Assembly: GCA_020249865.1 (NCBI GenBank)
Contig: JADCEV010000079.1
Span: forward strand, 1-35,209
DNA length: 35,209 bases
Origin: Roseomonas sp.
GTDB lineage: Bacteria > Pseudomonadota > Alphaproteobacteria > Acetobacterales > Acetobacteraceae
Direction of reading: 5' to 3'
The notes under the pieces were generated by a model. It had not been told where the DNA came from, searched no databases, and saw nothing but the letters and a program-made list of their open reading frames with translations. Both the position numbers and the translations under genes were made by a program. Positions 19,736 through 35,209 of this stretch are shown piece by piece (positions within the stretch are counted from its first letter, which is position 1; each line of letters starts with the position of its first letter).

Positions 19736-20401
19736 ATGGGTGGCTTGCCGATAGATCTGATCCTCTTTGCGATGGTGGCGGCATTTTTGGTGCTGCGCCT
19801 GAGGAGCGTGCTTGGCCGCCGGACGGGGTTTGAGCGTCCGCCGCAGACCGAAGCCGCGCCGGTGCCCGCCGGGCGAGGCCCCGCGACCGAGGTTGAGATT
19901 GCCGCCAAACCGTCCCAGGGCGGTGCACGGCGTGTCATTCCCGATCCGCGCAGCCCGGTGGGTGAGGCGCTGATGCAAATCCAGAAGCGCGACCGCAGCT
20001 TTGATCCCAACCGCTTTCTGGATGGCGCCGAAACCGCCTTTGGCATGATTGTGGAAGCCTTTGCCCGCGGTGACCGCGCCACCTTGAAGCCGCTTTTGTC
20101 TGAGGAGGCCTTTGCCGGCTTTGACCAGGCGATTTCGGCGCGTGAGGCCGCCGGGGAGACTCAGCGCACGGAACTCCGCAGTGTTGAGGAAAGCGGAATT
20201 GAAGCGGCGGAACTCCGCGGCTCTGTGGCCGAGGTTACGGTGCGGCTGGTGACGGATCAGATCAATCTGGTGCAGGCACGCGATGGCTCCATTGTGTCGG
20301 GCGCCGAGGCGGTGACGGAGCTGACCGATGTCTGGACCTTCCAGCGTGACCTCAATAGCGCCGACCCGACCTGGCGCCTGGTGGGCAGCACTGCCGCCTA
20401 G
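19736..20401 (+). CDS. Tim44-like (TimA family) membrane adaptor protein
   Basis: This 221-residue protein has one N-terminal membrane helix (about 5-24, IDLILFAMVAAFLVLRLRSV), a proline-rich linker, and a C-terminal Tim44-like domain (FLDGAETAFGMIVEAFARGD near 93-112, ending DPTWRLVGS). It is the bacterial relative of mitochondrial Tim44 and is typical of alphaproteobacteria. There it is proposed to act as an inner-membrane adaptor in protein assembly. Start ATG 19736 has a strong AAGGAG. It is followed after 57 bases by the large vWA/GATase-like membrane protein on the same strand. Confidence 0.88.
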   Translation: MGGLPIDLILFAMVAAFLVLRLRSVLGRRTGFERPPQTEAAPVPAGRGPATEVEIAAKPSQGGARRVIPDPRSPVGEALMQIQKRDRSFDPNRFLDGAETAFGMIVEAFARGDRATLKPLLSEEAFAGFDQAISAREAAGETQRTELRSVEESGIEAAELRGSVAEVTVRLVTDQINLVQARDGSIVSGAEAVTELTDVWTFQRDLNSADPTWRLVGSTAA

Positions 20402-20458
20402 TGCGGTGTTCGTTATGGCGGGGTCCGGGGTGAGATTATCGCTCCGGACTAAGCGTCC

Positions 20459-22537
20459 ATGACTCAGCATCTTGCCTATATAGATTTCCTTCCCCGCCTG
20501 CCGCTTTGGCTGCTGGCGCTTTTTGCGGCCCTTTCCCTGATATTTCTTGCCTATGGGCTTTATCAGCGCGCGCGCGGGATTTGGTGGCGGGCGCTGGCGG
20601 TGGTGATCCTGCTGGGCGCTCTCGGCAATCCGCGCCTGTTGCGGGAAGAACGCGAAACACGGCCGGATATCGCGATCCTGGCTGTTGACCGTAGTGACAG
20701 CACTGGGATTGCCGATCGGGCTGAACGCATCGCCGCCGCGCGTGCTGCCCTGGAAGCGCGCGCCGCGCGCCTGCCCGCGCTTGATTTGCGGGTGGTTGAA
20801 GTGCCCGAAGCCGGCCAGCGCGGCACGGCGTTGTTTTCGGCTTTGGGTGCGGCCTTGGCGGATGTGCCTCGGGCGCGGCTTGCGGGCGTGATCGCGCTGA
20901 CCGATGGCCAGGTGCATGACGCGCCGGCGCTGCTGCCTTTCGACGCGCCGTTTCATGTGTTGCTGCCGGGCCGCGCCGGCGAAATTGATCGGCGCCTCCG
21001 CCTGGTTTCAGCCCCTGGCTTTGGCATTGTCGGCCAGCAGGTGGAATTGCGCGTGGTGATCGAGGATTTGGGCGCGTCGGCTGGCGGCAATGCCGGGCTG
21101 ATCATCCGCCGCGATGGCGGTGCGCCGCGGCGTGAGGAAATCCTGATCGGGCGCGAGCACGCGATTTCTGTGCCCGTCGCGCGCGGCGGTCCGATGGTGA
21201 TTGAACTTGAAGCCGAACCCCGCGCGGGCGAGGTAAGCTCGCTCAATAACCGTCAGGTGGTCACCGTGAATGGTGTTCGGGATCGGCTGCGCGTGCTGCT
21301 GGTTTCCGGTGAACCCCATGCCGGCGAACGCGCCTGGCGGCGCTTGCTGAAGGCTGACCCCAATGTGGATTTGGTGCATTTCACCATCCTCCGCCCGCCG
21401 GAGAAGGATGATCTGACGCCGCTCAATGAATTGGCGCTGATCGCCTTTCCGGTGCGGGAGCTGTTTCAGGTCAAGCTGCGCGAGTTTGATTTGATTGTGT
21501 TTGACCGCTTCACCAATCGCGGCCTGCTGCCGCCCACTTATATGCGCAATATCGCCGATCACGTGCGCGCGGGTGGCGCGTTGTTGATGAGTGTCGGGCC
21601 GGAATTCGCGGGGCCGGCCTCTCTCGCTTTCACGCCGCTGTCGCAAGTATTGCCCGCGCGCCCAATCGGTCGCGGTGCGGGGGTGGAGGAAGGGCCGTTT
21701 CGTCCGCGCATCAGCACGCTCGGTGCGCGGCATCCGGTGACGGAGGCGCTCGCGGGCGCCAATAGTGCCGCGACAGAAGCAAGCTGGGGTCGCTGGTATC
21801 GCTGGCTGCGCGGTGAGGCGCGCGGCGGCATGGCGGTGATGGAAAGCCCGGAAGGCACACCCTTGCTGGTGCTGGATCGGGTCGGTGAGGGGCGCGTGGC
21901 GCTGCTGATGTCGGATCATATCTGGCTTTGGGGGCGCGGGCATGATGGCGGCGGCCCGCAGGAAGAATTGCTGCGCCGCATCGCCCATTGGCTGATGCGC
22001 GAAACCACGCTGGAAGAAGAGGATCTGACGGCGCGGATTGACGGCGGGCGCATGGCGATTGCGCGTCGCAGCCTGGAAGTGGCACCAGCGCCTGAAGTGA
22101 CCATCACCGCGCCTGATGGCTCACGCAGTACGGTCCGGTTGGAAGATGCCGGCGGCGGGCGCGCGATTGCCGATGTTGCGGCGCGTATGCCCGGTGTGTG
22201 GCAGGTGGGTGACGGCAAGCGCGTGGCTTTCGCTGCTGCTGCGGTCGCAAATCCTTTGGAAATCGCTGATCTGCGCGCCGATGGCGAAAAGCTGCGCCCC
22301 TTGGTGCAGGGCCGCGGCGCGATCCGCTGGCTGGGTCAGGAAGCCGCGCCGGCGCTGCCGGAATTGCGCATGGTGACGGCAGGGCGAGAGGTTGCCGGTG
22401 CGGGCTGGATTGGCCTCAGGCGCAATGCCGATCACAGCGTGATCAGCATTTCCGCCTTGCCACTGCTGCCGCCTTGGTTGGCACTCTTACTGTTGCTCGG
22501 CACCGTGGTGCTGGCCTGGCGGCAGGAGGGGCGCTGA
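20459..22537 (+). CDS. Large membrane protein with vWA-like and GATase-like regions (usual DUF4159 partner)
   Basis: This 692-residue protein has two N-terminal membrane helices (about 14-36 and 42-58) and one C-terminal helix (about 668-686, PWLALLLLLGTVVLAWR). A vWA-like region (DIAILAVDRSDSTG near 70) follows the first helices. A class I glutamine-amidotransferase-like region (VRAGGALLMSVGPEFAG near 368) lies in the middle, without an obvious catalytic Cys. The family normally sits directly after the DUF4159 gene in a moxR-DUF58-DUF4159 set. Here it is about 18 kb away and on the other strand. Its role is presumably in the same envelope-associated complex. The start is ATG 20459. Confidence 0.8.
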   Translation: MTQHLAYIDFLPRLPLWLLALFAALSLIFLAYGLYQRARGIWWRALAVVILLGALGNPRLLREERETRPDIAILAVDRSDSTGIADRAERIAAARAALEARAARLPALDLRVVEVPEAGQRGTALFSALGAALADVPRARLAGVIALTDGQVHDAPALLPFDAPFHVLLPGRAGEIDRRLRLVSAPGFGIVGQQVELRVVIEDLGASAGGNAGLIIRRDGGAPRREEILIGREHAISVPVARGGPMVIELEAEPRAGEVSSLNNRQVVTVNGVRDRLRVLLVSGEPHAGERAWRRLLKADPNVDLVHFTILRPPEKDDLTPLNELALIAFPVRELFQVKLREFDLIVFDRFTNRGLLPPTYMRNIADHVRAGGALLMSVGPEFAGPASLAFTPLSQVLPARPIGRGAGVEEGPFRPRISTLGARHPVTEALAGANSAATEASWGRWYRWLRGEARGGMAVMESPEGTPLLVLDRVGEGRVALLMSDHIWLWGRGHDGGGPQEELLRRIAHWLMRETTLEEEDLTARIDGGRMAIARRSLEVAPAPEVTITAPDGSRSTVRLEDAGGGRAIADVAARMPGVWQVGDGKRVAFAAAAVANPLEIADLRADGEKLRPLVQGRGAIRWLGQEAAPALPELRMVTAGREVAGAGWIGLRRNADHSVISISALPLLPPWLALLLLLGTVVLAWRQEGR

Positions 22538-22562
22538 AAGAACGCGCCACTTCGGATCGGCG

Positions 22563-22844
22563 TCAGCGCGCCGAGGCAAGCCGCATCGCGGAAGGTGCGG
22601 GCAATTCAATCTCGATCTCGAGCGTGGACATATCCCCGCCACGATCCAGATTGACATTCACCTTGCTCGGGTCAATCGCGACATAGCGTGCGACCACCGC
22701 GACCAATTCCTGTTGCAGCTTGGGCAGGAAATCCTCCCGATTGCGGCCAATGCGCTCATGCGCCAGCACAATCTGAAGCCTTTCCTTGGCGGCTGCGGCG
22801 CTATCATCCTTGCGCCGACCACGGAAGAAATCGAGCCAGGACAT
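22563..22844 (-). CDS. minE: Cell division topological specificity factor MinE
   Basis: This 93-residue protein has the N-terminal membrane-targeting and anti-MinCD segment (MSWLDFFRGRRK, then AKERLQIVLAHER at about 18-30) and the dimerising C-terminal domain (YVAIDPSKVNVNLD). MinE stimulates MinD ATPase and drives pole-to-pole oscillation. The start is ATG 22844, whose A is the last base of the minD TGA (TGATG). A GTG three bases earlier is less likely, because GGGAGG is better placed for the ATG. It is the last gene of minCDE. Confidence 0.95.
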   Translation of the reverse strand: MSWLDFFRGRRKDDSAAAAKERLQIVLAHERIGRNREDFLPKLQQELVAVVARYVAIDPSKVNVNLDRGGDMSTLEIEIELPAPSAMRLASAR

Positions 22845-23662
22845 CACGCGGCCCTCCCACCAAACAAGCGCCGGAACAGCCCCTTGCGCTCCGCTTCCAG
22901 GAAGCGATGCGGCACATCCTCACCCAGGAAGCGGGAAACCGCATCAGCATAAGCCTGGCCCGCGATGCTTTCATTATCCATGATCACCGGCGTGCCGGTA
23001 TTGGAAGCGCGCAGCACGCTTTCGCTTTCCGGGATCACGCCGAGCAGCGGGATGGCGAGGATTTCGCGAATATCCTCCAGCTTCAGCATTTCGCCCTTTT
23101 CCACGCGGTTCGGGTCAAAACGCGTCACCAGCAGATGTTCCTTCACCGGGTCTCGCTTTTCCTCCGCGCGCTTCGATTTGGATTGCAGCACGCCAAGAAT
23201 GCGGTCTGAATCCCGTACCGAGGAAACCTCCGGGTTCGTCACCACAATCGCCTGATCGGCGAAATAGAGTGCCAGCAGCGCGCCCTTTTCAATGCCGGCG
23301 GGGCTATCGCACAGGATGTAATCGAATTCCTTGGACAATTCCTCGATGATCTTGGCAACCCCTTCCTTGGTCAGCGTATCCTTATCCTTGGTCTGCGACG
23401 CTGGCAGGATGGAAAGGGTTTCCACGCGCTTGTCGCGGATCAGCGCCTGGCTCAGCCGTGCTTCGCCTTGGATGACATTGATGATGTCAAACACCACGCG
23501 CCTTTCGACACCCATAATGAGGTCGAGGTTGCGCAAGCCCACATCGAAATCAATCACCACCGTTTTCTTGCCGCGCTGGGCAAGGCCAGTTGCGAAGGCG
23601 GCGCTGGATGTCGTCTTGCCGACGCCGCCCTTGCCGGATGTCACCACAATAACCTGAGCCAT
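22844..23662 (-). CDS. minD: Septum site-determining protein MinD
   Basis: This 272-residue ParA/MinD ATPase has the deviant Walker A motif KGGVGKTT (11-18), a DFDVGLRNLDL switch region, and a C-terminal amphipathic membrane-targeting helix (RKGLFRRLFGG). MinD recruits MinC to the membrane to block FtsZ rings at the poles. I chose ATG 23662 because AGGGAGG lies eight bases upstream; the in-frame TTG at 23668 is only two bases from it. It is the middle gene of minCDE and overlaps minE by one base. Confidence 0.96.
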   Translation of the reverse strand: MAQVIVVTSGKGGVGKTTSSAAFATGLAQRGKKTVVIDFDVGLRNLDLIMGVERRVVFDIINVIQGEARLSQALIRDKRVETLSILPASQTKDKDTLTKEGVAKIIEELSKEFDYILCDSPAGIEKGALLALYFADQAIVVTNPEVSSVRDSDRILGVLQSKSKRAEEKRDPVKEHLLVTRFDPNRVEKGEMLKLEDIREILAIPLLGVIPESESVLRASNTGTPVIMDNESIAGQAYADAVSRFLGEDVPHRFLEAERKGLFRRLFGGRAA

Positions 23663-23697
23663 AGCCAATGCCTCCCTGAAACTTCGTCGCGCCGCGA

Positions 23698-24474
23698 TCA
23701 GGTGATGGGGTCGAAGCGCATGCGCTCACCCACCAGCCGCACCTGCATCGCCTTGCCGATTTGTGCTGCCGGAAAGCCTTCCCGCACGGCGTAGAAGCCG
23801 GCGATGGAAACCAGTTCCGGATCGAAATTCAGCGCAAAAACCCGCGCTTCCATATTGCTGGCACCACCCGCAATGGCGCGGCCACGCAAAGCGCCATAGA
23901 CATGGATATTGCCATCCGCAATCACCTCGGCTCCCGCATTGACGGTGGAGGTGACAATCAGATCAGCCCCTTCCGCCCAAATGCGCTGCCCGGCGCGTAC
24001 GGGCTGTTCCACCACCATGGTGCTGCGCGCAGCAGCCGGCTTGGCGGCGGGCGGCGGCGGCGCAGCGGCCGCTTGCGGTGCGCCTTCAGTCGGCGCGGCG
24101 GGCGCCACGATATCATCCGTTTCCTTGCCGCCGACACTGCGCACCGGTGGCAGCCCATAGGACAGCGCGGCGTTGCGCATTTCTGTCGTGCCGCCGGTGG
24201 TGCCGATCGGCATGATCTCAAGCTCACGCAGGCCCTTGATCAGCCCGGGGAAATCCACCTCATTCGGCGGGACCTGAATATCGCTCAGGCCAAGCACGAT
24301 GGGCGCGAAGCGCAGAAACCCCGGCGCGCGGCGGAATTGATCGCCAATGGCGGGCACCACCGCTTCGGGCTGATGATCCAGCAGGCGCAGCACGAGCAGA
24401 TTGAAATTCGCCCCGCGCAGGCGAAAGGGTTCAATACGGGTGGCGGTATCGGGCCTGGGCGCGGCGCTGGACAT
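23698..24474 (-). CDS. minC: Septum site-determining protein MinC
   Basis: This 258-residue division inhibitor has an N-terminal FtsZ-interacting domain (about 15-110) and a C-terminal beta-helix domain (about 152-258; VRAGQRIWAEGADLIVTSTV, IHVYGALRGRAIAGG). They are joined by an alanine/proline linker (about 122-148) longer than in E. coli MinC. It acts with MinD to stop polar Z-rings. Start ATG 24474 has AGGAG four to five bases upstream. It is first in the minCDE operon, with minD 35 bases downstream. The 253-bp spacer upstream contains a perfect DnaA box. Confidence 0.94.
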   Translation of the reverse strand: MSSAAPRPDTATRIEPFRLRGANFNLLVLRLLDHQPEAVVPAIGDQFRRAPGFLRFAPIVLGLSDIQVPPNEVDFPGLIKGLRELEIMPIGTTGGTTEMRNAALSYGLPPVRSVGGKETDDIVAPAAPTEGAPQAAAAPPPPAAKPAAARSTMVVEQPVRAGQRIWAEGADLIVTSTVNAGAEVIADGNIHVYGALRGRAIAGGASNMEARVFALNFDPELVSIAGFYAVREGFPAAQIGKAMQVRLVGERMRFDPIT

Positions 24475-24512
24475 GAAACTCCTGAGGGGCTCGGACTCGA
24501 TGCGCCTTCGAG

Positions 24513-24521
24513 TTATCCACA
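24513..24521 (+). promoter_or_regulatory. Consensus DnaA box upstream of minC
   Basis: TTATCCACA is an exact match to the high-affinity DnaA box. It lies 39 bp upstream of the minC start in the 24475-24727 spacer between divergent minC and the NMT1-type protein. I noticed only this copy, so it is not an origin by itself, but it could couple min expression to DnaA. Nothing else convincing is seen in this spacer apart from AT-rich GATATAGCG near 24555. Confidence 0.45.
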
Positions 24522-24727
24522 GCTTCTAGTGGGTGTCCCCGGCGGCACGCACAAGATATAGCGTCTTCCTATGGGCGGGCGAAGGGGTTGGATGCTTCCT
24601 GCTGATCTGGCAGGGCCTTAGCGGGCGAAGTTCAGAAATGCCTCAAACCGCGACTCGGGGCGCGTCTGGCGGGGCTGACCGGGGCGCCAAGCTCAGGCAG
24701 AATGAGGGCGCCAAAGGAGCGAAGATT

Positions 24728-25633
24728 GTGAAGCCCATCCGCCTTGCCGAACCCTTCCGCGCCGTCTTTTACGCGCCCTTTTATGTCGCCGAACAGCGTG
24801 GCTTTTACGCGCGCCATGGCGTGACCGTCACGCGCGCCACCGCCGGCGACCCGACGCGGGCGGCGGAGGCGCTGCTTGCCGATCAGGCCGATGTTGCCTG
24901 GTCCGGCCCGATGCGCATGATCATGATGCGCGCCGCCGATCCTACCTGCCCCTTGCGGTCCTTTTGCGCGGTGGTGATGCGCGATCCCTTCATGCTGCTC
25001 GGCCGCGGGCCCAATCCCGGCTTCAGCCTGCAGGATTTGCCCAAGCTCCGCTTCGGCAGCGTCAAGGAAGTGCCGACCCCCTGGTGGTGCTTGCAGGATG
25101 ATCTGCGCCAGGCGGGTATGGACCCGGATGCCCTGGCGCGCGTGACGGACAAGACCATGGCGGAAAACGCCGATGCGGTGGCCGAGGGCCGTTTGGATGT
25201 CGCGCAGATGTTCGAACCCTTCGCAACACGGCTGGAAGCCAAGGGTGGTGCGGTGTGGCATCGCGCTTCCGATCGGGGGCCGAGTGCCTATACCGCGCTT
25301 TACGCAACGGCTTCGAATATCCAGCGCTTCAGCGCGGAGTTTGAAGCCATGATTCGCGCCTTGGCCGATGCCTTGGCCTTTGTTTACGCAGCACCTGCCG
25401 CCGAAATCGCCGCCAGTGTCGCGCCACTTTTCCCCGATGTGACCTTGGCTGAATTGACCCATGGCCTGGCCCGCTATCAGGCCGCGCGGCTGTGGCCGGA
25501 GACGCCGCATTTCCCCGAAGCTGCCTTCACGCAGCTGCGCGGTGCGATGAAAAGCGCGGGCGTGATTGCGCGTGAGCCAAGCTTCGCCGATTGCGTTGAT
25601 AATGCGATTGTCACGCGCGCCTTGGGCCGTTAG
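24728..25633 (+). CDS. NMT1/THI5-like ABC-type substrate-binding protein without an obvious signal peptide
   Basis: This 301-residue protein of the SsuA/THI5/NMT1 type has KPIRLAEPFRAVFYAPFYVA at its start, ADVAWSGPMRMIMMR near 57-71 and a C-terminal CVDNAIVTRALG. Start GTG 24728 has AAGGAG eight bases upstream, but gives a protein with no secretion signal. The frame is open upstream to GTG 24533, adding a hydrophobic stretch (YSVFLWAGEGVGCFLLIW) and a low-complexity linker that might act as a signal anchor. The short form looks better supported. No transporter genes are adjacent; it heads a set with a thioesterase, a dehydrogenase and a hydrolase. The ligand is unknown. Confidence 0.82.
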   Translation: MKPIRLAEPFRAVFYAPFYVAEQRGFYARHGVTVTRATAGDPTRAAEALLADQADVAWSGPMRMIMMRAADPTCPLRSFCAVVMRDPFMLLGRGPNPGFSLQDLPKLRFGSVKEVPTPWWCLQDDLRQAGMDPDALARVTDKTMAENADAVAEGRLDVAQMFEPFATRLEAKGGAVWHRASDRGPSAYTALYATASNIQRFSAEFEAMIRALADALAFVYAAPAAEIAASVAPLFPDVTLAELTHGLARYQAARLWPETPHFPEAAFTQLRGAMKSAGVIAREPSFADCVDNAIVTRALGR

Positions 25634-25642
25634 GGGCAGCGC

Positions 25643-26086
25643 ATGAGCAAGCAACGCGGCCGACGCGCCGATTACGCCTTCTTCGTCCCCATAGCGACAC
25701 GCTGGATGGACAATGATGTCTATGGCCATATCAACAACGTCATCTATTATTCCTGGATAGATAGCGCGGTGGCGCGCTTCCTGACTTCCTCTGGCTTTTT
25801 GCATATCCCGACCGCACCGGTGATTGGTCTGGTCGTGGAAACGCAATGCCGCTATTTCGCGCCCATCGCTTTTCCGGATGACATCACCTGCGGTGTGCGC
25901 TGCGCGCGCGCCGGCAACACCTCCGTTCGTTATGAGGTCGGCATTTTCCGCAATGATGAGGATGAGGCGAGTGCCGAGGGCTATCTGGTGCATGTTTATG
26001 TGGATCGCGCCACGCAGAAAACGCCGACCCCCTTGCCCGATACGCTGCGCGCTGCGCTTCAGCGCATCACCCTGAACCCTTCGTAA
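25643..26086 (+). CDS. Acyl-CoA thioesterase (4HBT/YbgC hotdog family)
   Basis: This 147-residue single hotdog-fold protein has the 4HBT motif RWMDNDVYGHINNVIYYSWID (positions 20-40), in which the aspartate near D25 and H29 line the active site. ETQCRYFAPIAFPDDI follows as the second conserved strand pair. Such enzymes hydrolyse short acyl-CoA or 4-hydroxybenzoyl-CoA-like thioesters. It lies nine bases after the binding-protein gene and 16 before the dehydrogenase, so it is in the same operon. The substrate is unproven. Confidence 0.87.
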   Translation: MSKQRGRRADYAFFVPIATRWMDNDVYGHINNVIYYSWIDSAVARFLTSSGFLHIPTAPVIGLVVETQCRYFAPIAFPDDITCGVRCARAGNTSVRYEVGIFRNDEDEASAEGYLVHVYVDRATQKTPTPLPDTLRAALQRITLNPS

Positions 26087-26102
26087 TTCCAAGGAACACC
26101 TA

Positions 26103-27071
26103 ATGTCCGTTGCACCGCTCAAGCGCCTTGCCATTCTGGATGATTATCAGGGTGTCGCGCTTTCCCTTGGCCCCTGGGAGAAGCTGCCGAAGGGCCTGGA
26201 GATCACGGTTTTTCGCGATACCATCACCGATCACGCGGCGCTGGTGGAAAGGCTGAAACCCTTTGATGCCATTCTGGCGATGCGCGAAAGAACGCCCTTT
26301 CCGCGCAAGCTGATCGAAGCACTGCCCAATCTGCGCCTGATCATCACAACCGGCGGGCGCAATCGTTCCATTGATGCCGCTGCCTGCGCTGAACGTGGCG
26401 TGGTGTTTTGCGGCACGGGTACTTCGGGCGATCCCACCGCGGACCTCACCTGGGGGCTGATCCTTTCCCTGGTGCGCGATATTCCCCGCCAGCAGGAAGC
26501 GCTGCGCGCCGGGCGCTGGCAGACGCATGTCGGGCTCGGCCTGGAAGGCAAAACGCTTGGCGTGATCGGGCTTGGCAAGCTTGGCGGGCGTGTTGCCAAA
26601 ATCGGCCAGGCCTTCGGCATGAAGGTGCTCGCCTGGTCGAGCAACCTGACGGAGGAACGCGCCGCCGAGATTGGCGCAACGCGCGTGGACAAGGCGACAT
26701 TGCTGCGTGAAGCCGATGTGGTGACCTTGCACCTGGTTCTATCGGATCGGTCGCGCAATACCATCACCGCGCCTGATCTCGCCTTGATGAAGCCAACAGC
26801 CTTCATCGTGAACACCAGCCGCGGGCCGCTGATTGAACAGGCCGCGCTGATTGCGGCGCTGAAGGAAGGCCGCATCGCCGGTGCTGGCCTGGACGTTTTT
26901 GATATTGAACCCCTGCCCGCCGATCACCCGATCCTTGGTGCGCCCAATACCGTGCTGACACCGCATCTTGGTTACGTGACGGAACAGAATTACCGCACCT
27001 ATTACGAAGTGACCGTTGCCGCCATCAATGCCTTCATGGAAGGCGCCCCGATTGGCGTGATCAAGCCATGA
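26103..27071 (+). CDS. D-2-hydroxyacid dehydrogenase family protein
   Basis: This 322-residue NAD(P)-dependent dehydrogenase reduces 2-ketoacids or oxidises D-2-hydroxyacids. The nucleotide-binding loop is GLGKLG (156-161). The catalytic residues are R240 (NTSRGPL), E269 (DIEPLP) and H288 (TPHLGY). Family members of this branch resemble phosphoglycerate/hydroxypyruvate-type enzymes, but the specificity is not evident. Its TGA overlaps the hydrolase ATG by four bases (27068-27071), a strong sign of coupling. Confidence 0.9.
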   Translation: MSVAPLKRLAILDDYQGVALSLGPWEKLPKGLEITVFRDTITDHAALVERLKPFDAILAMRERTPFPRKLIEALPNLRLIITTGGRNRSIDAAACAERGVVFCGTGTSGDPTADLTWGLILSLVRDIPRQQEALRAGRWQTHVGLGLEGKTLGVIGLGKLGGRVAKIGQAFGMKVLAWSSNLTEERAAEIGATRVDKATLLREADVVTLHLVLSDRSRNTITAPDLALMKPTAFIVNTSRGPLIEQAALIAALKEGRIAGAGLDVFDIEPLPADHPILGAPNTVLTPHLGYVTEQNYRTYYEVTVAAINAFMEGAPIGVIKP

Positions 27072-27916
27072 CAAGCCCCTACACCATGCCCGAAGGCTGG
27101 GCCGGCTGGCCCCAGGCCGCGCGCGATGCGGCGTACGACAACCTCAATGGCGTGGCGGATAGCGCGGCGCAGGTCGCGAACCGCAATGCGTTGTCTGAGG
27201 CGTTTCGTGCTGCCCATACCGGGCATCTTGATCTGCCCTTCGGCAATGGCGAGCGCGAAAAATGGGATCTCTACCCCGCCGCGCGGGCTGATGCGCCGTG
27301 CCTGGTGTTCATCCATGGCGGCTATTGGCAGCGCAACCGGCGGGAGGATTTCGCCATCATGGCCGAAGGCGCCTTGGCCGCCGGATGGTCGGTTGGGATT
27401 TGCGGCTATACGCTGGCGCCTGAGGCTTCCATGACGCGCATCGTGGGTGAAATCCATGCCGCGCTGGATTGGCTTGGCGCGCATGGCGCGGCACATGGCG
27501 TGGCCGGCAAGGTGGTGGCTTCCGGCTGGTCCGCGGGTGGGCATTTGGCGGCGTTGGCGGCGGAGCATCCCTTGGTGGTGGGCGCGCTTGCCATGTCCGG
27601 CATTTATGAATTGGCGCCCATCGCTGAGACCAATCTGAACGACAAGCTGCGCCTGACGCCGGAGGAAATCGCGGCGCATTCACCGATCCGCCGGCCAGTG
27701 GTGCAAAAACCCATCGCCATTGCCTATGGCGCGCGGGAATTGCCGGAATTGCGGCGGCAAAGCAGGGTGTTCCATCGCCACCGGGCAGAGGCGCAGGCCC
27801 CCGGCGCGCTAATCCCGGTGCCGGAAGCGGATCATTTCCGCGTGCTGGAAGCGCTCTGGCGCCGCGATGGGCTGCTTCTGCGCGCAGCGGCGGAGGTTTT
27901 GGCGGCGGCGGGGTAA
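27068..27916 (+). CDS. Alpha/beta hydrolase, kynurenine-formamidase/esterase-like
   Basis: This 282-residue alpha/beta hydrolase has an HGGYW oxyanion motif (83-87), nucleophile elbow GWSAGG with S155, and a likely catalytic histidine in EADHFRVLE. The HGGYW...GWSAGGHL pattern is shared with arylformamidases (kynurenine formamidase) and related esterases. Its neighbours contain no tryptophan-degradation genes, so formamidase activity is only a possibility. It is the last gene of the 24728-27916 operon and is followed by a strong terminator. Confidence 0.87.
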   Translation: MTSPYTMPEGWAGWPQAARDAAYDNLNGVADSAAQVANRNALSEAFRAAHTGHLDLPFGNGEREKWDLYPAARADAPCLVFIHGGYWQRNRREDFAIMAEGALAAGWSVGICGYTLAPEASMTRIVGEIHAALDWLGAHGAAHGVAGKVVASGWSAGGHLAALAAEHPLVVGALAMSGIYELAPIAETNLNDKLRLTPEEIAAHSPIRRPVVQKPIAIAYGARELPELRRQSRVFHRHRAEAQAPGALIPVPEADHFRVLEALWRRDGLLLRAAAEVLAAAG

Positions 27917-27937
27917 CCTGACGCCCCCCCCCAAACA

Positions 27938-27968
27938 AAAACGGCGCGGGAAGGCCCCGCGCCGTTTT
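27938..27968. terminator. Bidirectional rho-independent terminator
   Basis: AAAACGGCGCGGG (27938-27950) and CCCGCGCCGTTTT (27956-27968) form a perfect 13-bp stem with loop AAGGC. A T-run flanks each side in the transcript sense, so it serves both the hydrolase operon (plus) and fusA (minus), which converge here. A nine-C run (27924-27932) precedes it. Confidence 0.9.
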
Positions 27969-27991
27969 GCTATTCAAAGGCTAATTCAGGA

Positions 27992-30073
27992 TCAAGCCGA
28001 CTTCGCCATGATCTCATCCGCGATATTGCGCGGCACCGGATCGTAGTGGTGGAACTGCATGGAGAAGGAAGCACGCCCCTTCGTCATGCCGCGCAGGTTG
28101 GAAATATAGCCGAACATTTCCTTCAGCGGCACATGCGCGCGTACGATAACGCTGGTGCCCGCCATATCCTGGCTTTGGATCACGCCGCGGCGGCGGTTCA
28201 AATCGCCCACCACATCGCCCACATGGTCGGATGGCGTGGTCACTTCCACATCCATGATCGGTTCCAGGATCACCGGGCCGGCCTTCTTCATGCCTTCGCG
28301 GAAGCAGGCCTTGGCAGCGATTTCAAACGCCAGCGCGCTGGAGTCAACGTCGTGATACTTGCCATCCACCAGGCTGTACTTGAAGTCCACGGTGGGGAAG
28401 CCGGCCAGCACGCCGGTATCGGCCTGCACCTTGATGCCCTTTTCGACCGCCGGGATGTATTCCTTCGGCACCGCACCGCCCACAACACCATTGTGGAATT
28501 CGATGCCTTCATTGCGTTCCTTCGGCTCAAAGATGATCTTCACTTCGGCGTATTGGCCCGAACCGCCCGACTGCTTCTTGTGGGTATAGGTTTCGGTATG
28601 CGCCCGCGTGATGGTCTCACGATAGGCCACCTGCGGCGCGCCGATATTCGCATCCACGCCATATTCGCGCTTCAGGCGGTCAATGATGATTTCCAGATGC
28701 AATTCGCCCATGCCGGAAAGGATGGTCTGGCCGCTTTCCTGATCGGTGCGCAGACGAAGTGACGGGTCTTCGCCCGCCAGCTTCTGCAAGCCAAGGGTCA
28801 TCTTTTCGACGCCTTCCTTGGTTTTGGGTTCGACCGAGATGTCAATCACCGGCACCGGGAAGGCCATGCGTTCCAGCACAACGGCATCTTCCTGCGCGGC
28901 CAGCGTGTCACCCGTGCCGGTATCCTTCAGGCCCACGAAAGCCGCGATATCGCCCGCGAAGACTTCCTTGATTTCCTCGCGCTTGTCGGCATGCATCTGG
29001 AACATGCGGCCAACGCGTTCCTTATGACCCTTGGTGGTGTTCAGGACCTGGTCACCCGAACGCAGCACGCCGCGATAGACGCGGACAAAGGTCAGGTTGC
29101 CGTATTTGTCGTTGATGATCTTGAAGGCGAGGCCCGCGAAAGGCGCGTTTTCGTCAGCCGGGATCACGCGGCGATCAGCCGTTTCATCCTGGCCTTCTTC
29201 CGGCGCCACCTTGATGCCTTCGATATCCACCGGGGATGGCAGGTAATCAATCACCGCATCGAGCAGCGGCTGCACGCCCTTGTTCTTGAAGGAAGAACCG
29301 CAGACCACCGGGCGGAATTCGCCGGTAATCGTGCCCTTCTTGATGCACTTCTTGAGCGTTTCGACCGAAACATCGCCCTTGTCGAAATATTCTTCCATGG
29401 CGGATTCATCAACGCCGACAACCGTATCAAGCAGCTTCTGGCGATATTCCGCGGCCTTGTCGGCCAAATCAGCGGGGATCGGCGCTTCATGATACTTCGC
29501 ACCCAGATCGTCGCCTTCCCAGATCAGCGCCTTCATCTCCACCAGATCAACCACGCCCTTCAGCGTGTCTTCAATGCCGATCGGCAATTGCAGCGTGACC
29601 CAGTTGATGCCGAGCTTTTCCGTCAGCGTTTCGGCAGCACGGAAGAAATCGGCGCCGGTGCGGTCAAGCTTGTTGATGTAGATAATGCGCGGCACGTTGT
29701 AGCGGTCAGCCAGGCGCCAATTGGTCTCGGACTGCGGCTGCACACCGGCCACACCTTCAATAACGAACACCGCGCCATCCAGCACGCGCAAGGACCGATT
29801 CACTTCAATATTGAAGTCAATATGGCCTGGCGTGTCGATAACGTTGATGCGGTGGCCCTTCCATTCCGCGGTCACGGCGGCGGAGGTGATGGTGATGCCG
29901 CGCTCACGCTCCTGCTCCATGTAATCGGTGGTGGTGCTGCCATCATGCACTTCACCGATCTTGTGGGACTTGCCGGTGTAGTACAGGATGCGTTCCGTCG
30001 TGGTGGTCTTGCCCGCGTCAATATGCGCGGTGATGCCGATATTGCGGATATGGGTAAGCGGGGTACGCGCCAC
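27992..30073 (-). CDS. fusA: Elongation factor G (fusA-type translational GTPase)
   Basis: This 693-residue protein has all EF-G domains. The GTPase motifs are [12 protein letters not shown] (P-loop), GITITSAAV (switch I), DTPGHIDF (G3) and NKLD (G4). Domain IV and V markers are [12 protein letters not shown] and [13 protein letters not shown]. It drives ribosomal translocation and recycling. Start GTG 30073 ([13 protein letters not shown]) matches the family start and has GGAGG six bases upstream; an in-frame ATG at 30136 would add 21 unconserved residues. It stands alone, outside an rpsL-rpsG-fusA-tuf cluster. It also carries unusual residues such as [12 protein letters not shown] where HVDFTIEVERSL is usual, so it may be a second EF-G. 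Confidence 0.93.
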
Positions 30074-30091
30074 GGTGGGCCTCCATAAGCA

Positions 30092-30127
30092 AAAGCCGGA
30101 CGCCCGTCCCGGCTTTCGCCGGACGCC
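30092..30127 (-). promoter_or_regulatory. Competing hairpins in the EF-G leader (candidate attenuator)
   Basis: In the minus-strand transcript, CCGGC-GAAA-GCCGG (30122 to 30109) forms a stem capped by a GAAA tetraloop. The downstream alternative AAAGCCGG/CCGGCTTT (30116-30109 with 30099-30092, 9-base loop) runs into TTTT and resembles a terminator. Both use 30109-30113, so they exclude each other. The decamer GGCGTCCGGC occurs twice, 23 bp apart. The GTG start is 18 bases beyond. Confidence 0.4.
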
Positions 30128-30270
30128 GCCCGCCATAAGGGTTCAGGGTTTAGTCTCCGATGGGCGCTATCTGCGATGTTCGGGCGCGGTTTGCAAGCGC
30201 AAAGGGGCGCGGGCGCGGGGTTTAATTGCCCAGAAGCATGGTTTTGCGAGGCTTGGTGGCGCGCTGACCA

Positions 30271-30293
30271 GCCCCGAATCGCGAAAGCGGGGC
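30271..30293 (-). terminator. Possible weak terminator after the Bug-family gene
   Basis: GCCCCG (30271-30276) and CGGGGC (30288-30293) pair five bases after the Bug-family stop. No T-run follows on the minus strand, so termination, if any, would need Rho. Confidence 0.3.
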
Positions 30294-30298
30294 GCCCA

Positions 30299-31246
30299 TC
30301 AATCGAGCCTGATGCCCTCGGCCGCGATCAGATCGCGCATCTCAGTGCGTTCGGCGGCCAGGAAACGGGCGAAGGCTTCGGGGCCTTCGGCGGCTGGCGT
30401 CAGGCCCAGCGTTTCCAGCCGCGGCGCCAGGGCGGGCTGTTCCACGGCATCTTTTGCGGCGGCGGCAAGGCGGGCGATCACGGGCGCCGGGGTGGCGGCG
30501 GGGGCCAAAAGCCCAAGCCAATCGCCCATCTGAAACCCTGCAAGACCCTGTTCGCTGATGGTCGGCAGCGCCGGGAAGGCTGCGCTGCGGAAAGGCGCGG
30601 AAAGGCCGATGGCGCGGGCCTTGCCGTCCCGGATCAATGGCCCGGCGAGCGCCAGAGAGGTAAAGCCGAATGGCACATCCCCCCGGAGCAACCCCGCCAT
30701 CTGATCCGCCCCGCCGCGATAGGGGACATGCTCGCCGGTCAGGCCCGCCCGCCGCAACAGGCTTGCGGCGGCAAGATGCGTGCGGGACCCGACGCCAACA
30801 CTGCCATAGCGTGCCTCGGCTGGGTTGGCGCGAAGCCGTGCGATCAGCGCGGTCAAATCCGCCGCGCCATATTCGGCCCGCGTGATCAGAATGAGCGGCA
30901 GGGTGGCGAGCAGCGTGATGGGCGTGAGGTCCCGCACATAATCAAAGCCAAGCCCGCGCATCAGAAATGGATTGACCGATTGCCCCCCGGAATCGAGCAG
31001 GATCGTCCCGCCATCCGGTGCCGCCTGGGCGACAAACCCGGCCCCCACCGCGCCCGAGGCGCCGCTGCGGTTTTCCGGCGTCACCAGCGCCCCCAACACC
31101 TCCGCCATGCGGGGCGCGATCAGCCGACCCAGGATATCGGTGCTGCCGCCGGGCGGGAAAGCGATGATCAGGCGAAGCGCGCGTTCGGGCGTTTGCGCCA
31201 AGGCCGGCGCGGCCAAAAGCCCGCCCAGGATCGCGCGGCGCTGCAT
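30299..31246 (-). CDS. Bug family (tripartite tricarboxylate transporter) substrate-binding protein
   Basis: This 315-residue periplasmic protein has a short signal peptide (MQRRAILGGLLAAPALAQ) and the Bug hallmark IIAFPPGGSTDILGRLIAPRM near residues 27-47. The ligand-loop signature VGVGSRTHLAAASL is near 150. Bug proteins bind carboxylated compounds (citrate, amino acids, aromatic acids, nicotinate) for TctAB permeases, or act as sensors. No tctA/tctB lies in the window. Its ATG is only two bases after the stop of the radical SAM gene amrS, so the two are probably translated from one mRNA, which is unusual for an orphan Bug gene. Confidence 0.9.
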   Translation of the reverse strand: MQRRAILGGLLAAPALAQTPERALRLIIAFPPGGSTDILGRLIAPRMAEVLGALVTPENRSGASGAVGAGFVAQAAPDGGTILLDSGGQSVNPFLMRGLGFDYVRDLTPITLLATLPLILITRAEYGAADLTALIARLRANPAEARYGSVGVGSRTHLAAASLLRRAGLTGEHVPYRGGADQMAGLLRGDVPFGFTSLALAGPLIRDGKARAIGLSAPFRSAAFPALPTISEQGLAGFQMGDWLGLLAPAATPAPVIARLAAAAKDAVEQPALAPRLETLGLTPAAEGPEAFARFLAAERTEMRDLIAAEGIRLD

Positions 31247-31248
31247 GG

Positions 31249-32355
31249 CTATGGCGCCAAGCGCACGCTTTGGCGCTTGCGGCCCCAGGTGCCGGGCTTT
31301 TCCTCAAACACGCCGGGCAGGGGGGTGCCGCAATCCGGGCAGCCGCCATCCGGGGTCAGGCGCCATTCCAGCAGCTCATACCAATCGCGCTTGATCAGCG
31401 ACCCGCCACAGGCATGGCACCAGGTGCCGGCGCGCGATGGCGCATGGATATTGCCGACATAGACATGCCGCACGCCGGCGGCACGGGCCAAGCGCCGCGC
31501 GCGGAACAGGGTTTCCGGTGGCGTGCCGGGCCGGTCCTTCATGCGGAAATCCGGCTTGAAGGCGCTGAAATGCAGCGGCACATCGGGGCCGAGGGCATCC
31601 ACAATCCATTCTGAAAGAGACACGATCTCGGCATCCGAATCATTCAGCCCAGGAATCAGCAGGGTGGTGATTTCAAACCACACCTTTGTTTCGCGCTTCA
31701 GGTAGATCAGCGTTTCCTTGACGGGTTCCAATTGGCCCTTGGTGATGTCGCAATAAAACCCCTCGGTAAAGGCTTTCAGGTCAATATTGGCGGCGTCAAT
31801 GTGGCGGTAGAATTCCTCACGCGGGCCGGCATTCATATAGCCGGCGGTGACGGCGACGGTCTTGATGCCCTCCGCGCGGCATACCTTCGCGATATCCATG
31901 GCATATTCAAGGAAAACCACCGGATCATTATAGGTAAAGGCAATGGATCGGCAGCCGAGTTGCTTCGCCGCGCGCATGATCACTTCCGGCCGGCCGGTGG
32001 ACGCGACGCTATCCATCTCTCGGCTTTTGGAGATGCCCCAATTCTGGCAGAAATCGCAGGCGAGGTTGCAGCCCGCCGTGCCGAAGGACAACACCGGCGT
32101 GCCGGGCAGGAAGTGATTGAGCGGCTTTTTCTCGATCGGGTCCACGCAAAAGCCGGAGGACCGGCCATAGGTGGTCAGCACCACACCATCCTCATTGGCG
32201 CCGCGCACGAAACAAAGCCCGCGCTGGCCGTCACGCATCTTGCATTCGCGCGGGCAGACATCGCAGCGAAACCGGCCATCAGACAGCTTCGTCCACCAGC
32301 GCGTCGGCACGCCGGTCAGTTTCTGGGCTTCGGGAATCATGGTTTCGGCAGGCAT
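31249..32355 (-). CDS. amrS: AmmeMemoRadiSam system radical SAM enzyme AmrS
   Basis: This 368-residue radical SAM protein has the 4Fe-4S motif CNLACDFC (C96, C100, C103), preceded by an N-terminal cysteine set (CDVCPRECKMRDGQRGLC, C31-C48). It ends with a rubredoxin-like pair of knuckles (CHACGG ... CPDCG) that probably binds another metal. These are the AmrS features. The enzyme occurs with MEMO and AMMECR1 proteins in a conserved system whose bacterial reaction is not established, to my knowledge. Starts at ATG 32355 or ATG 32340 are both possible; longer frames run into the divergent gene. It diverges from the MEMO-AMMECR1 gene by 18 bp and is followed at once by a Bug-family gene. Confidence 0.93.
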   Translation of the reverse strand: MPAETMIPEAQKLTGVPTRWWTKLSDGRFRCDVCPRECKMRDGQRGLCFVRGANEDGVVLTTYGRSSGFCVDPIEKKPLNHFLPGTPVLSFGTAGCNLACDFCQNWGISKSREMDSVASTGRPEVIMRAAKQLGCRSIAFTYNDPVVFLEYAMDIAKVCRAEGIKTVAVTAGYMNAGPREEFYRHIDAANIDLKAFTEGFYCDITKGQLEPVKETLIYLKRETKVWFEITTLLIPGLNDSDAEIVSLSEWIVDALGPDVPLHFSAFKPDFRMKDRPGTPPETLFRARRLARAAGVRHVYVGNIHAPSRAGTWCHACGGSLIKRDWYELLEWRLTPDGGCPDCGTPLPGVFEEKPGTWGRKRQSVRLAP

Positions 32356-32361
32356 TTCATC

Positions 32362-32367
32362 TATAAT
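32362..32367 (+). promoter_or_regulatory. TATAAT -10 element giving a predicted leaderless MEMO-AMMECR1 mRNA
   Basis: A perfect TATAAT ends six bases before the ATG at 32374, so transcription would start at or next to the A of the start codon. No good -35 is visible 17 bp upstream (ATGGTT region). There is no proper ribosome-binding site, only GGGG three bases from the ATG. Together this suggests a leaderless message. Confidence 0.4.
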
Positions 32368-32373
32368 GGGGCG

Positions 32374-33744
32374 ATGGATGCCGCGACAAAAGCCCCGGAA
32401 GTGCTGGGCGCCTTTTATCCCGCCGATGCGCCGAGCCTGGCTGCCGGGGTGGATCGCCATATCGCCGCGGCGCGGCCCTGGGCGCTGCGCCCGAAAGCTG
32501 TGGTGGCGCCGCATGCCGGGCATGTGTTTTCCGGCCCCATCGCGGGCAGCGCCTATCGCCTGCTGGCCGCCCAGCGCGGCACCATCCGCCGCGTGGCGAT
32601 CCTGAGCCCACCGCATCGCATGGCGGTGCAGGGCTTGGCCGTGCATCCCGCCCATGCCTGGGCAACGCCGCTTGGCCTGCTGCCGGTGGACCGCGCAGCG
32701 ATCACAAAGCTGCTGGCGCTGCCCTTTGTGGCGGAAAACCCAGCGCCTTTCACGCGGGAACACGGCATTGAAGTGCATCTGCCCTTCATCCAGCGCGCCT
32801 TGGGCCAGGTTGCCATTATTCCCGTGCTGGTCGGGCAGGCCACACCGCAACAGGTGGCAAGCGCGCTTGAAGCGGTCTGGGGCGGGCCGGAGACCGCGAT
32901 CATCATCTCCTCAGACCTGTCGCATTACCTGGGCTATGAGGAAGCGCGCGCCAAGGATATCGGCACTGTCGCGGCGATTGAGCAATTGCGCGGGGACCGC
33001 ATTGGCGGCGCGGAGGCCTGCGGGCGGCATGCGCTTCATGGCATGCTGGAACGCGCGCGCGCCTTGGATATGCGCGCGACAACGCTGGATTATCGCAATT
33101 CCGGCGATACCCATGGCGATAAGGCGCGCGTGGTTGGGTATGCGTCAGTCGCGTTTGAATATGCGCAGGAAGCGCGGCTGACGGATTCAGACCGCAAGCT
33201 GGTGTTCGATCTGGCGCAATTCATGGTGCGCTTTGGGGTGGAGCATGGTCGCCGGCCCAAGATTGGCTGGGGTGAGCTTTCACCTTCCATGAAGGCGCAG
33301 CGCGCAAGCTTTGTGACACTCACGCTGAATGGTGCTTTGCGCGGTTGCATCGGCAGCGTGACCGCGCATCGCGCCTTGCATGAGGATATTGCCGATAGCG
33401 CCTGGAAAGCCGCCTTTGGCGACCCGCGCTTCAAGCCGCTGAATGCTGAGGAATTGGCCGGGGTGAAGGTGGATGTTTCCATCCTGAGCCAGCCGCGCCC
33501 GATTGCCGTGAATAGCGAGGCCGAGCTGATCAATGCGCTTGATCCTGATCGGGATGGCTTGATCTTGCGCGACGGGCAGCACCAGGCGCTGTTTTTGCCC
33601 CATGTCTGGGGCGGTATTCCTGATCCGCGCGTTTTCATTCGCGCGCTGAAACGCAAGGCGGGTTTGGCGCCGGATCATTGGTCGCCTGAAACGCGTGCCT
33701 TTCGCTTCAGCGTGGAATCTTTTGGGCAGAGTGACCAGCACTGA
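32374..33744 (+). CDS. amrB: AmmeMemoRadiSam system MEMO-AMMECR1 fusion protein (AmrB + AmrA)
   Basis: This is a 456-residue two-domain protein. Residues 1-265 form a MEMO-like domain related to class III extradiol dioxygenases. H47 (VAPHAGH), H81 (LSPPHRM) and C216 (EACGRHALHG) match the metal triad of human MEMO1, and SSDLSHY (179-185) adds conserved polar residues. Residues 270-456 form an AMMECR1 domain with the invariant LRGCIGS (322-328). In many genomes A and B are separate genes, so the fusion supports direct cooperation. The substrate is unknown. The frame is open upstream to 31732, but that part is antisense to amrS. It ends six bases before the convergent HIU hydrolase gene. Confidence 0.92.
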   Translation: MDAATKAPEVLGAFYPADAPSLAAGVDRHIAAARPWALRPKAVVAPHAGHVFSGPIAGSAYRLLAAQRGTIRRVAILSPPHRMAVQGLAVHPAHAWATPLGLLPVDRAAITKLLALPFVAENPAPFTREHGIEVHLPFIQRALGQVAIIPVLVGQATPQQVASALEAVWGGPETAIIISSDLSHYLGYEEARAKDIGTVAAIEQLRGDRIGGAEACGRHALHGMLERARALDMRATTLDYRNSGDTHGDKARVVGYASVAFEYAQEARLTDSDRKLVFDLAQFMVRFGVEHGRRPKIGWGELSPSMKAQRASFVTLTLNGALRGCIGSVTAHRALHEDIADSAWKAAFGDPRFKPLNAEELAGVKVDVSILSQPRPIAVNSEAELINALDPDRDGLILRDGQHQALFLPHVWGGIPDPRVFIRALKRKAGLAPDHWSPETRAFRFSVESFGQSDQH

Positions 33745-33750
33745 GCAGTT

Positions 33751-34113
33751 TCAAGACCCGCGATAAGTCGCGTAACTCCAGGGCGAACAAAGCAGCGGCA
33801 CATGGTAATGCCCCTGATCCGGCATAAGCCCAACCGCAAGGGTCACCACATCCAAAAATGGCACCTCCGCCCCCTGGCCACGGGCGCGGAAATACTCCGC
33901 CACCGCAAAGCGCAATTCATAACGCCCAGGGACGAAATCCGCCTGCGCCACCAAGGGGCCATCGGTGCGGCCATCGGCATTGGTGCGCCGCGTGGCGACC
34001 AAAACCGGCGTGGGGTCCATGCGCCAAAGCTCCACCGCCATGCCCTCGGCCGGGATGCCCTCGGCCGTGTTCAGCACATGTGTTGAAAGGGAACCGGGTC
34101 CGCTGCGGGCCAT
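33751..34113 (-). CDS. uraH: 5-hydroxyisourate hydrolase (transthyretin-like, HIUase)
   Basis: This 120-residue transthyretin-related protein has the N-terminal LSTHVLNTAEGIPAEGM motif and the C-terminal signature SPWSYATYRGS, whose YRGS end is diagnostic. H11 (STHVLN) and H102/H104 (GHYHVPLL) lie in the expected active-site positions. It hydrolyses 5-hydroxyisourate to OHCU after urate oxidation. Start ATG 34113 has AAGGAG eight bases upstream. It lies 13 bases after puuD on the same strand, giving consecutive steps of urate degradation. Confidence 0.95.
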   Translation of the reverse strand: MARSGPGSLSTHVLNTAEGIPAEGMAVELWRMDPTPVLVATRRTNADGRTDGPLVAQADFVPGRYELRFAVAEYFRARGQGAEVPFLDVVTLAVGLMPDQGHYHVPLLCSPWSYATYRGS

Positions 34114-34126
34114 GGGGGAATCTCCT

Positions 34127-35209
34127 TCAATCCAGGGGCGCGCCGGCGGCGACCCAGGCGATCAGCTTGGCGCGTTGCTCCGCCGTCATCTCGGTCATAT
34201 TGCCGGGGGGCATGGCTTCCGTCTGCACCTGCTGGCGCATCGCAGCCGCCCAGCGGCGGATTTGCGCTGGGGTTTCCATGATCACGCCCTTGGGCGCCAC
34301 CGCGATCCCCTCAAAACTCGGCCGGGCGGCATGGCAGCTTGCGCAATGGGCGGCGACGATGGCCTGAACTTCCGTGAAGGGTGGCACCTCGGCACTCGCG
34401 TAATCCCGCTTGCCGGATTGCACGATGAAAAACGCCGCGACCATGGCCGCCACCGCGCCGGCGGGCAGCCACAGCGCATTCCGCCCCTGTTGGCGCAGCA
34501 CGAAGAATTGCCGCACCAGCGCGCCGGCCAGGCCAATCACCAGCAGGATCAGCCAATTCAGCGGGTGCTGCCAGGTCATGGGGTAATGCGGTGAGATCAT
34601 GATGAACAGCACCGGCAGCGTCAGATAGGTGTTGTGCACACTGCGCTGCTTGCCCCAGCGGCCATATTTCGGGTCGGGCGTGGCGCCGGCACTCATGGCC
34701 GCGACCATTTTGCGCTGGCCAGGGATGATCACCATGGCGACATTGGCGACCATGATGGTGCCGGTCATGGCCCCCACCTGCAAAAACGCCCCGCGGCCCG
34801 AGAAGACCTGGCAGGATATATAAGCCACCACCGCCAGCGCCACAGCGCCGATGGCGCCCAACAGCGCCTCATTCTCGCCAAGCTTGGATCGGCAGACCAG
34901 ATCATAGGCGACCCAGCCGCCCACCAGCATGGCGGCGCTGATGCCAATGGCCTGCCAGGGCGAAAGGGGCATCACGGCGGGGTCAATCAAATAGCTGGAT
35001 GCCTGACCCCAATAGATCAGCACGAAAAGCGAAAAGCCGCTGATCCAGGTCCAATAGGCTTCCCATTTGAACCAATGGAGTTTTTCCGGCAGCTTCTCCG
35101 GCGCCAGCAGATATTTGCGCTTGTAATAGAAGCCCCCGCCATGCACCGCCCATTGCTCACCGCGGACCAGCGGGTTCTTGTCCGCCGGCGGGTCAAGCTG
35201 ATTGTCCAA
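34127..35209 (-). CDS. puuD: Urate hydroxylase PuuD (membrane-bound, cytochrome c domain), 5' end cut by window
   Basis: 360 residues are visible. The first visible codon, TTG, encodes the Leu of a WLDNQLDPPADKNP-type sequence found well inside PuuD, so it is not the start; an N-terminal helix lies beyond the window. The part in view has about six membrane helices (near 54-68, 87-106, 115-133, 142-163, 194-208, 216-236 and 246-264). A C-terminal cytochrome c domain has the haem motif CASCH (C289, C292, H293) and a possible axial Met in MPPGNM (333-338). PuuD oxidises urate to 5-hydroxyisourate and passes electrons to the respiratory chain, making no H2O2, unlike soluble uricase. It is co-transcribed with uraH. 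Confidence 0.94.
   Translation of the reverse strand: MDNQLDPPADKNPLVRGEQWAVHGGGFYYKRKYLLAPEKLPEKLHWFKWEAYWTWISGFSLFVLIYWGQASSYLIDPAVMPLSPWQAIGISAAMLVGGWVAYDLVCRSKLGENEALLGAIGAVALAVVAYISCQVFSGRGAFLQVGAMTGTIMVANVAMVIIPGQRKMVAAMSAGATPDPKYGRWGKQRSVHNTYLTLPVLFIMISPHYPMTWQHPLNWLILLVIGLAGALVRQFFVLRQQGRNALWLPAGAVAAMVAAFFIVQSGKRDYASAEVPPFTEVQAIVAAHCASCHAARPSFEGIAVAPKGVIMETPAQIRRWAAAMRQQVQTEAMPPGNMTEMTAEQRAKLIAWVAAGAPLD

Follow-up and report, generated by a model that had tools for sequence, protein, structure and literature searches.

A compact two-gene AmmeMemoRadiSam module with a fused MEMO-AMMECR1 protein in a Roseomonas-like bacterium

Identification of the module

The AmmeMemoRadiSam trio of a Roseomonas-like bacterium is encoded by two back-to-back genes occupying 2.5 kb at the right end of the window (the whole stretch of DNA that was analysed, 35,209 nucleotides of contig JADCEV010000079.1). 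An earlier note, made from the sequence alone, had claimed that these genes form such a system.

The gene amrS (31249–32355, minus strand; ATG at 32355, stop at 31249) codes for the AmmeMemoRadiSam system radical SAM enzyme of 368 amino acids. The amrB-amrA fusion (32374–33744, plus strand; ATG at 32374, stop at 33744) codes for a MEMO-AMMECR1 protein of 456 amino acids. AmrS matched TIGR04337 with 602 bits (cut-off 220, E 2e-181), its residues 18–366 covering all 349 profile positions, and PF04055 with 63 bits. The fusion matched TIGR04336 (MEMO) with 223 bits (cut-off 26) and, in the same frame, TIGR04335 (AMMECR1) with 186 bits (cut-off 99); the matches to PF01875 (149 bits, residues 8–259) and PF01871 (147 bits, residues 285–450) agreed with this. 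All three curated families thus scored over cut-off and were encoded together, and the divergent arrangement with an 18-base gap (32356–32373) was as the note had described it.

The host genome (G000) of 3.65 Mb, assembled in 154 contigs with completeness 100, contained a single copy of the module. A near relative, the Roseomonas MAG of locus L075, had an AmrS 99% identical to that of the window. Compared with a relative at 94–96% DNA identity, AmrS had a dN/dS of 0.028 and the fusion one of 0.087, next to 0.090 for TctC and 0.100 for EF-G, which indicates that purifying selection maintains both as it does ordinary genes; the value for the hydroxyisourate hydrolase gene was set aside because its alignment was gapped. 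The module is real and intact, far beyond what chance would give, and ordinary for a fused version of a known system. The AmmeMemoRadiSam system (TIGR04335/04336/04337) was already named in print (eLife 2020, in the accessible part of that paper). The window likewise has all three families, adjacent and with intact motifs; it has AmrB and AmrA as one protein and AmrS in divergent orientation, both features also being present in other members. What the window adds is a compact fused copy, and the finding does not reveal the function.

Conserved residues and predicted structures

The extra cysteine sets that had been ascribed to the radical SAM enzyme were present. In an alignment of 41 AmrS rows (the window plus 40 loci from the set of 80 described below) all 11 cysteines were invariant. 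They comprised the CX3CX2C radical SAM cluster motif (C96/C100/C103; 32047–32070, minus strand), an N-terminal set (C31/C34/C38/C48; 32212–32265, minus strand), which may form an auxiliary metal or Fe-S site, and two C-terminal pairs (C313/C316 and C339/C342; 31330–31419, minus strand), probably zinc-ribbon- or rubredoxin-like. For the AF2 model of AmrS (pLDDT 85.7, pTM 0.88), the best PDB match in Foldseek was the PFL activating enzyme 3c8f, followed by many radical SAM enzymes. The two proteins share the radical SAM core fold (TMt 0.77) and CX3CX2C; AmrS differs by its two extra cysteine sets and by the lack of a detected glycyl radical enzyme in its genome. A role as a defence system was considered and rejected: in PADLOC, AmrS gave only a weak viperin match (19 bits) and the fusion gave none.

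The MEMO domain (PF01875) spans residues 8–259 of the fusion (32395–33150, plus strand), with H47 at 32512, H81 at 32614 and C216 at 33019. When a MEMO profile of 32 rows (10 fused, 22 not) was aligned with the human MEMO1 chains, H47, H81, C216, D181 and H184 fell on human H49, H81, C244, D189 and H192 (residue names as in the accessible parts of PMC9477392 and PMC11081632). The first three human residues are described as iron ligands in the available text of PMC11081632, and by this alignment the 2His-1Cys metal ligands of the family are present, as the note had stated for the triad. The AMMECR1 domain (TIGR04335, PF01871) spans residues 277–450 (33202–33723, plus strand). Its LRGCIGS sequence (residues 322–328) was likewise intact, with the LRGCIG motif at residues 322–327 (33337–33354), and C325 was invariant in ten aligned fused proteins. 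In human AMMECR1, a Gly-to-Asp change in the LRGCIG motif segregates with a developmental disorder, according to the accessible part of PMC5502304.

The AF2 model of the fusion, built from window and locus sequences, had a pLDDT of 94.8 and a pTM of 0.88; this high predicted score suggests a settled relative placement of the two domains. Foldseek matched the model to MEMO1 (TMt 0.80), archaeal AMMECR1 proteins and PCAD-type extradiol dioxygenases. Human MEMO1 (7KQ8, 3BCZ) has the MEMO fold and the 2His-1Cys site in common with the window fusion, but its crystallised chain is without an AMMECR1 half and is 24% identical to the window protein. The archaeal AMMECR1 proteins 1ZQ7, 1VAJ and 1WSC resemble the AMMECR1 half in sequence and fold, but are short chains (201–230 residues) without a MEMO half.

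Distribution, fusion and gene order

In the family, sampled as 60 genomes with one per genus, AmrS, MEMO and AMMECR1 were over cut-off in the same 3 genomes and none of them in the other 57. All 3 carriers had MEMO and AMMECR1 in one open frame and AmrS divergent from it. Below cut-off, the family yielded another two matches for AmrS and one for AMMECR1. Among 219 genomes of the phylum, all three families were over cut-off in 62, part of them in 6 and none in 151 (AmrS in 67, MEMO in 64, AMMECR1 in 63); these rows are not independent, with many species per genus and fragmented assemblies, and Fisher values overstate the evidence for co-occurrence. Four genomes (G232, G081, G243 and G185) had AmrS over cut-off without partners: G081 carried a main-type AmrS (610 bits) plus a divergent-type one, with no partner over cut-off, and G185 carried the divergent type only. 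MEMO and AMMECR1 without AmrS were found in G167, whose assembly (730 contigs, 96% complete, 6% contamination) may have missed AmrS, and G217 had no AMMECR1 over cut-off. In the control genomes, Haloferax had AMMECR1 alone of the three, and Thermus had MEMO without AMMECR1. Some absences may be assembly gaps. The trio is nearly always present or absent together, but the association is not obligate. The module is patchy across genomes, a point that the note lacks, as it does the frequency of fusion and the empty site in close relatives.

The conserved pairing in relatives bears on a possibility that the earlier note itself had named, namely that AmrS is part of some other known pathway, for example as an activase of a glycyl radical enzyme. 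Its place beside the fusion would then be accidental. AmrS did match the activase family TIGR02493, but weakly (51 bits, cut-off 232), the other 17 NCBIfam families among its matches were far under their cut-offs, and the conserved pairing speaks against accidental placement. A search of the 3.65-Mb host genome with PF01228 (Gly_radical) gave 0 matches, the same search being positive in 3 of 14 control genomes; the partner that an activase should have was not found, and the activase form is therefore refuted for this host. The probability of this explanation as a whole is close to negligible.

The near-strict co-occurrence would also fit an enzyme and its protein substrate. AmrS might then be activase-like and modify the MEMO-AMMECR1 protein itself, with the LRGCIG loop and the MEMO site as examples of where this could happen. 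The PFL activating enzyme, its closest solved relative in both sequence and fold, modifies its target in this way. However, AMMECR1 occurs alone in the Haloferax control, G167 has both partners without a detected AmrS (with the reservation given above), and the Foldseek matches of AmrS also include many radical SAM enzymes acting on small molecules or RNA. To our knowledge, human MEMO1 and AMMECR1 work without any AmrS, which we also counted against modification of the fusion. We consider such a modification unlikely.

Gene order was examined in AmrS loci from GTDB genomes, taken as the best 80 of 586 relatives, a choice that favours near kin. In 54 of these 80 loci MEMO lay within the stretch, in 44 divergently, in 8 in the same direction and in 2 convergently. 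The open frames were less than 200 bases apart or overlapped in 41 of the 44 divergent loci; in the remaining loci (L150, L124 and L129) the gap between AmrS and MEMO was 0.6–2.2 kb, 2.2 kb in L129, the nearest kin of the window in the MEMO tree. The pairing thus held in relatives at the level of loci as well as of genomes. The flanks of the other 26 loci were often short, and for all but L076 the search was extended to the whole genome: of these 25, MEMO was over cut-off in 21 (in one with only 30 bits) and AMMECR1 in 19. MEMO was lacking in four genomes, three of them MAGs of 1.2–2.1 Mb and the fourth that of a Halomonas strain (L137, 4.1 Mb). This strain has an intact-looking AmrS (L137, 9833–11074), and its genome gave no match to either MEMO or AMMECR1.

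The fused form was found in 27 of the 64 MEMO genomes of the phylum (same contig and same open-frame length) and in 10 of the 54 loci with MEMO in the stretch (window subtracted, L075 counted). Loci L134 and L150 also carry it. Where MEMO and AMMECR1 were separate genes (26 loci), MEMO came first on the same strand in 25, at distances of -21 to 98 bases, an order that is thus retained in the fusion. On the MEMO tree the fused or split state needs 6 changes (6–7 in 5–95% of bootstraps), and on the AmrS tree 8 changes, of which 3 are forced. The best MEMO tree favours fusion or splitting more than once; its well supported branches force only 1 change, so one fusion origin with later splits may also explain the pattern.

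At least three types of AmrS were seen, the main one among them. The second type (L063–L070) is shorter, its end lying close to GVW; of the 8 loci read, 6 have a fused MEMO-AMMECR1 no more than 0.5 kb away. The third type (L071, L072) has an SPR[RN]C N-terminus and was read in G185 and G081, both without MEMO over cut-off; G127 has an AmrS match scoring like this type, and its genome has MEMO. Selenocysteine was considered for several AmrS matches with a single internal TGA and was rejected: in the eight read, the TGA follows the last residues of the domain (GVW or like) and is an ordinary stop. Broken copies also occurred, possibly through assembly error: AmrS is in pieces in G243 and in two pieces in G202, and the fusion is in two pieces in G331.

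Proposed function

We know of no biochemical activity or reaction established for the AmmeMemoRadiSam system, and no report of the reaction of the bacterial trio was found among the open-licence PMC papers listed. Memo-Ammecr1 systems were reportedly described by Burroughs et al. in 2019, with isoprenoids and nucleotide bases as the proposed contexts.

The module is a complete, compact AmmeMemoRadiSam system in which AmrS and the fusion likely serve one pathway, with the fused domains acting as one enzyme. That one pathway and one substrate are involved is, in our judgement, highly probable. A common substrate of MEMO and AMMECR1, as the note had suggested, is favoured by the MEMO-first gene order, the apparently repeated fusion or splitting and the pTM of the fusion model. 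The [4Fe-4S] cluster bound by CX3CX2C of AmrS would cleave S-adenosylmethionine to give a 5'-deoxyadenosyl radical, and the two extra cysteine sets may hold an auxiliary cluster and a metal site with a structural role. The radical would functionalise an otherwise unreactive site in a small molecule, a base or a lipid, and the product would then be worked on by the fusion, with the 2His-1Cys iron site of MEMO and the LRGCIG loop of AMMECR1 presumably acting as one fixed two-domain enzyme. We give about even chances to this order of events, with AmrS acting before the fusion.

The MEMO family gave matches in Methanocaldococcus jannaschii, Methanosarcina acetivorans and Thermotoga maritima, all strict anaerobes. 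Since the family occurs in such organisms, the MEMO step would be somewhat more likely O2-independent, of a lyase, hydrolase or isomerase type, than a dioxygenation. The note had suggested C-C or C-O bond chemistry from the dioxygenase fold, and this part of its proposal was not supported. In the accessible portion of PMC11081632, no dioxygenase activity is reported for human MEMO1 with several standard substrates, which makes an O2-dependent step less likely; in that of PMC3857490, the MEMO gene of most archaea lies inside the mevalonate operon and the archaeal MEMO protein MJ0403 showed no turnover of mevalonate phosphate. A true extradiol-type dioxygenase, opening a ring or chain prepared by AmrS, would agree with the fold match of the fusion model to 2-aminophenol dioxygenase and DesB and with the iron at the equivalent site of MEMO1 (available text of PMC11081632). 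Yet Cys216 stands where LigB and DesB have Glu, so the 2His-1Glu metal site of the PCAD type is missing, and the MEMO1 data and the anaerobic hosts likewise speak against it. We regard this dioxygenase reading as rather doubtful.

Spacer between the genes

The 18-base divergent spacer (32356–32373, no strand assigned) contains TATAAT and may hold a promoter shared by the two genes. Spacer length and both start codons were kept in 10 of 11 genus loci, the window included; the eleventh locus (G329) lies at a contig edge and was left out of the comparison. In the same 10 of 11 loci TATA[AT]TGG stood at the same place, as TATAAT in the window and TATATT in some relatives, and all other spacer positions varied; L075 and G328, both among the 10, may be one organism, having an identical spacer and urate oxidase gene. 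TATAAT ends 6 bases before the ATG of the fusion, and no clear ribosome site was seen by eye at amrS or at the fusion. From this comparison, a shared symmetrical promoter with leaderless messages is possible. A more far-reaching idea is that both leaderless transcripts start from one symmetrical 18-base promoter and that AmrS places a radical-made modification or cross-link on the fusion, close to the LRGCIG loop or to the iron site of MEMO, giving a self-maturing enzyme; we hold it to be quite improbable.

Genomic site and history

In 35 genomes of the genus the fusion was found in 10; that of G331 was in two pieces and that of G323 had one TAA inside the match. G322 had a C-terminal stretch at 70% identity, and 3 genomes gave only weak matches (about 20 bits). 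In the window and in G324 the order is EF-G, tctC, amrS, fusion, hydroxyisourate hydrolase and urate oxidase. Among seven closer relatives without the module, four (G305, G319, G321 and G333; loci L167, L169, L171 and L172) had an empty site corresponding to window 31246–33751, with tctC followed directly by the hydrolase gene and the protein matches 67–71 bases apart; the contig of G305 ends within tctC. The remaining three (G304, G318 and G320; loci L166, L168 and L170) had no close tctC there and did not show the empty site, G320 being near a contig end. Two farther relatives (G303, G311) gave no tctC match, and their EF-G gene was some 3.7 kb away from the hydrolase gene. The module of G325 and G326 is next to tctC and EF-G, with the hydrolase and oxidase genes on another contig, and in G323 and G331 the two parts are likewise on different contigs.

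Close relatives in which this site is empty are natural knock-outs, and the whole system consists of two genes in 2.5 kb, a compact experimental handle. A comparison of metabolites, lipids and RNA is therefore practical. Two of the three parts have human relatives, MEMO1 and AMMECR1, tied to cancer and to a developmental disorder in the accessible parts of PMC11081632 and PMC5502304, respectively.

In the EF-G tree, carriers surround a clade made up of G319, G321 and G333, a pattern that speaks for loss of the complete module there rather than for two gains. On the urate oxidase tree 4 changes are needed, and the carrier G331 falls among non-carriers. In the MEMO tree the window groups with L129 (97/91), and G014 and G051 from its own family group with L134 (99/94); because the window stands apart from these two, the copies in the family probably have at least two histories. 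The AmrS tree placed the window and L129 with L140 with weak support (71). In the stretches compared (19.0 and 14.9 kb), the module was the only gene content that G014 and G051 had in common with the window.

Beyond the trio, no ORF cluster occurred in more than 8 loci when window 20001–35209 was compared with the best 80 of 586 relatives, and none of the neighbours pointed to a particular pathway. Several of the top clusters belong to one Rhodospirillales gene block (L090, L101, L120, L124, L134 and L150), and the window locus is outside this block. Next to the module, at 33751–35209, the window has a hydroxyisourate hydrolase gene and an adjoining gene for a membrane urate oxidase with a C-terminal cytochrome c domain, whose reading frame runs up to the window end (35209).
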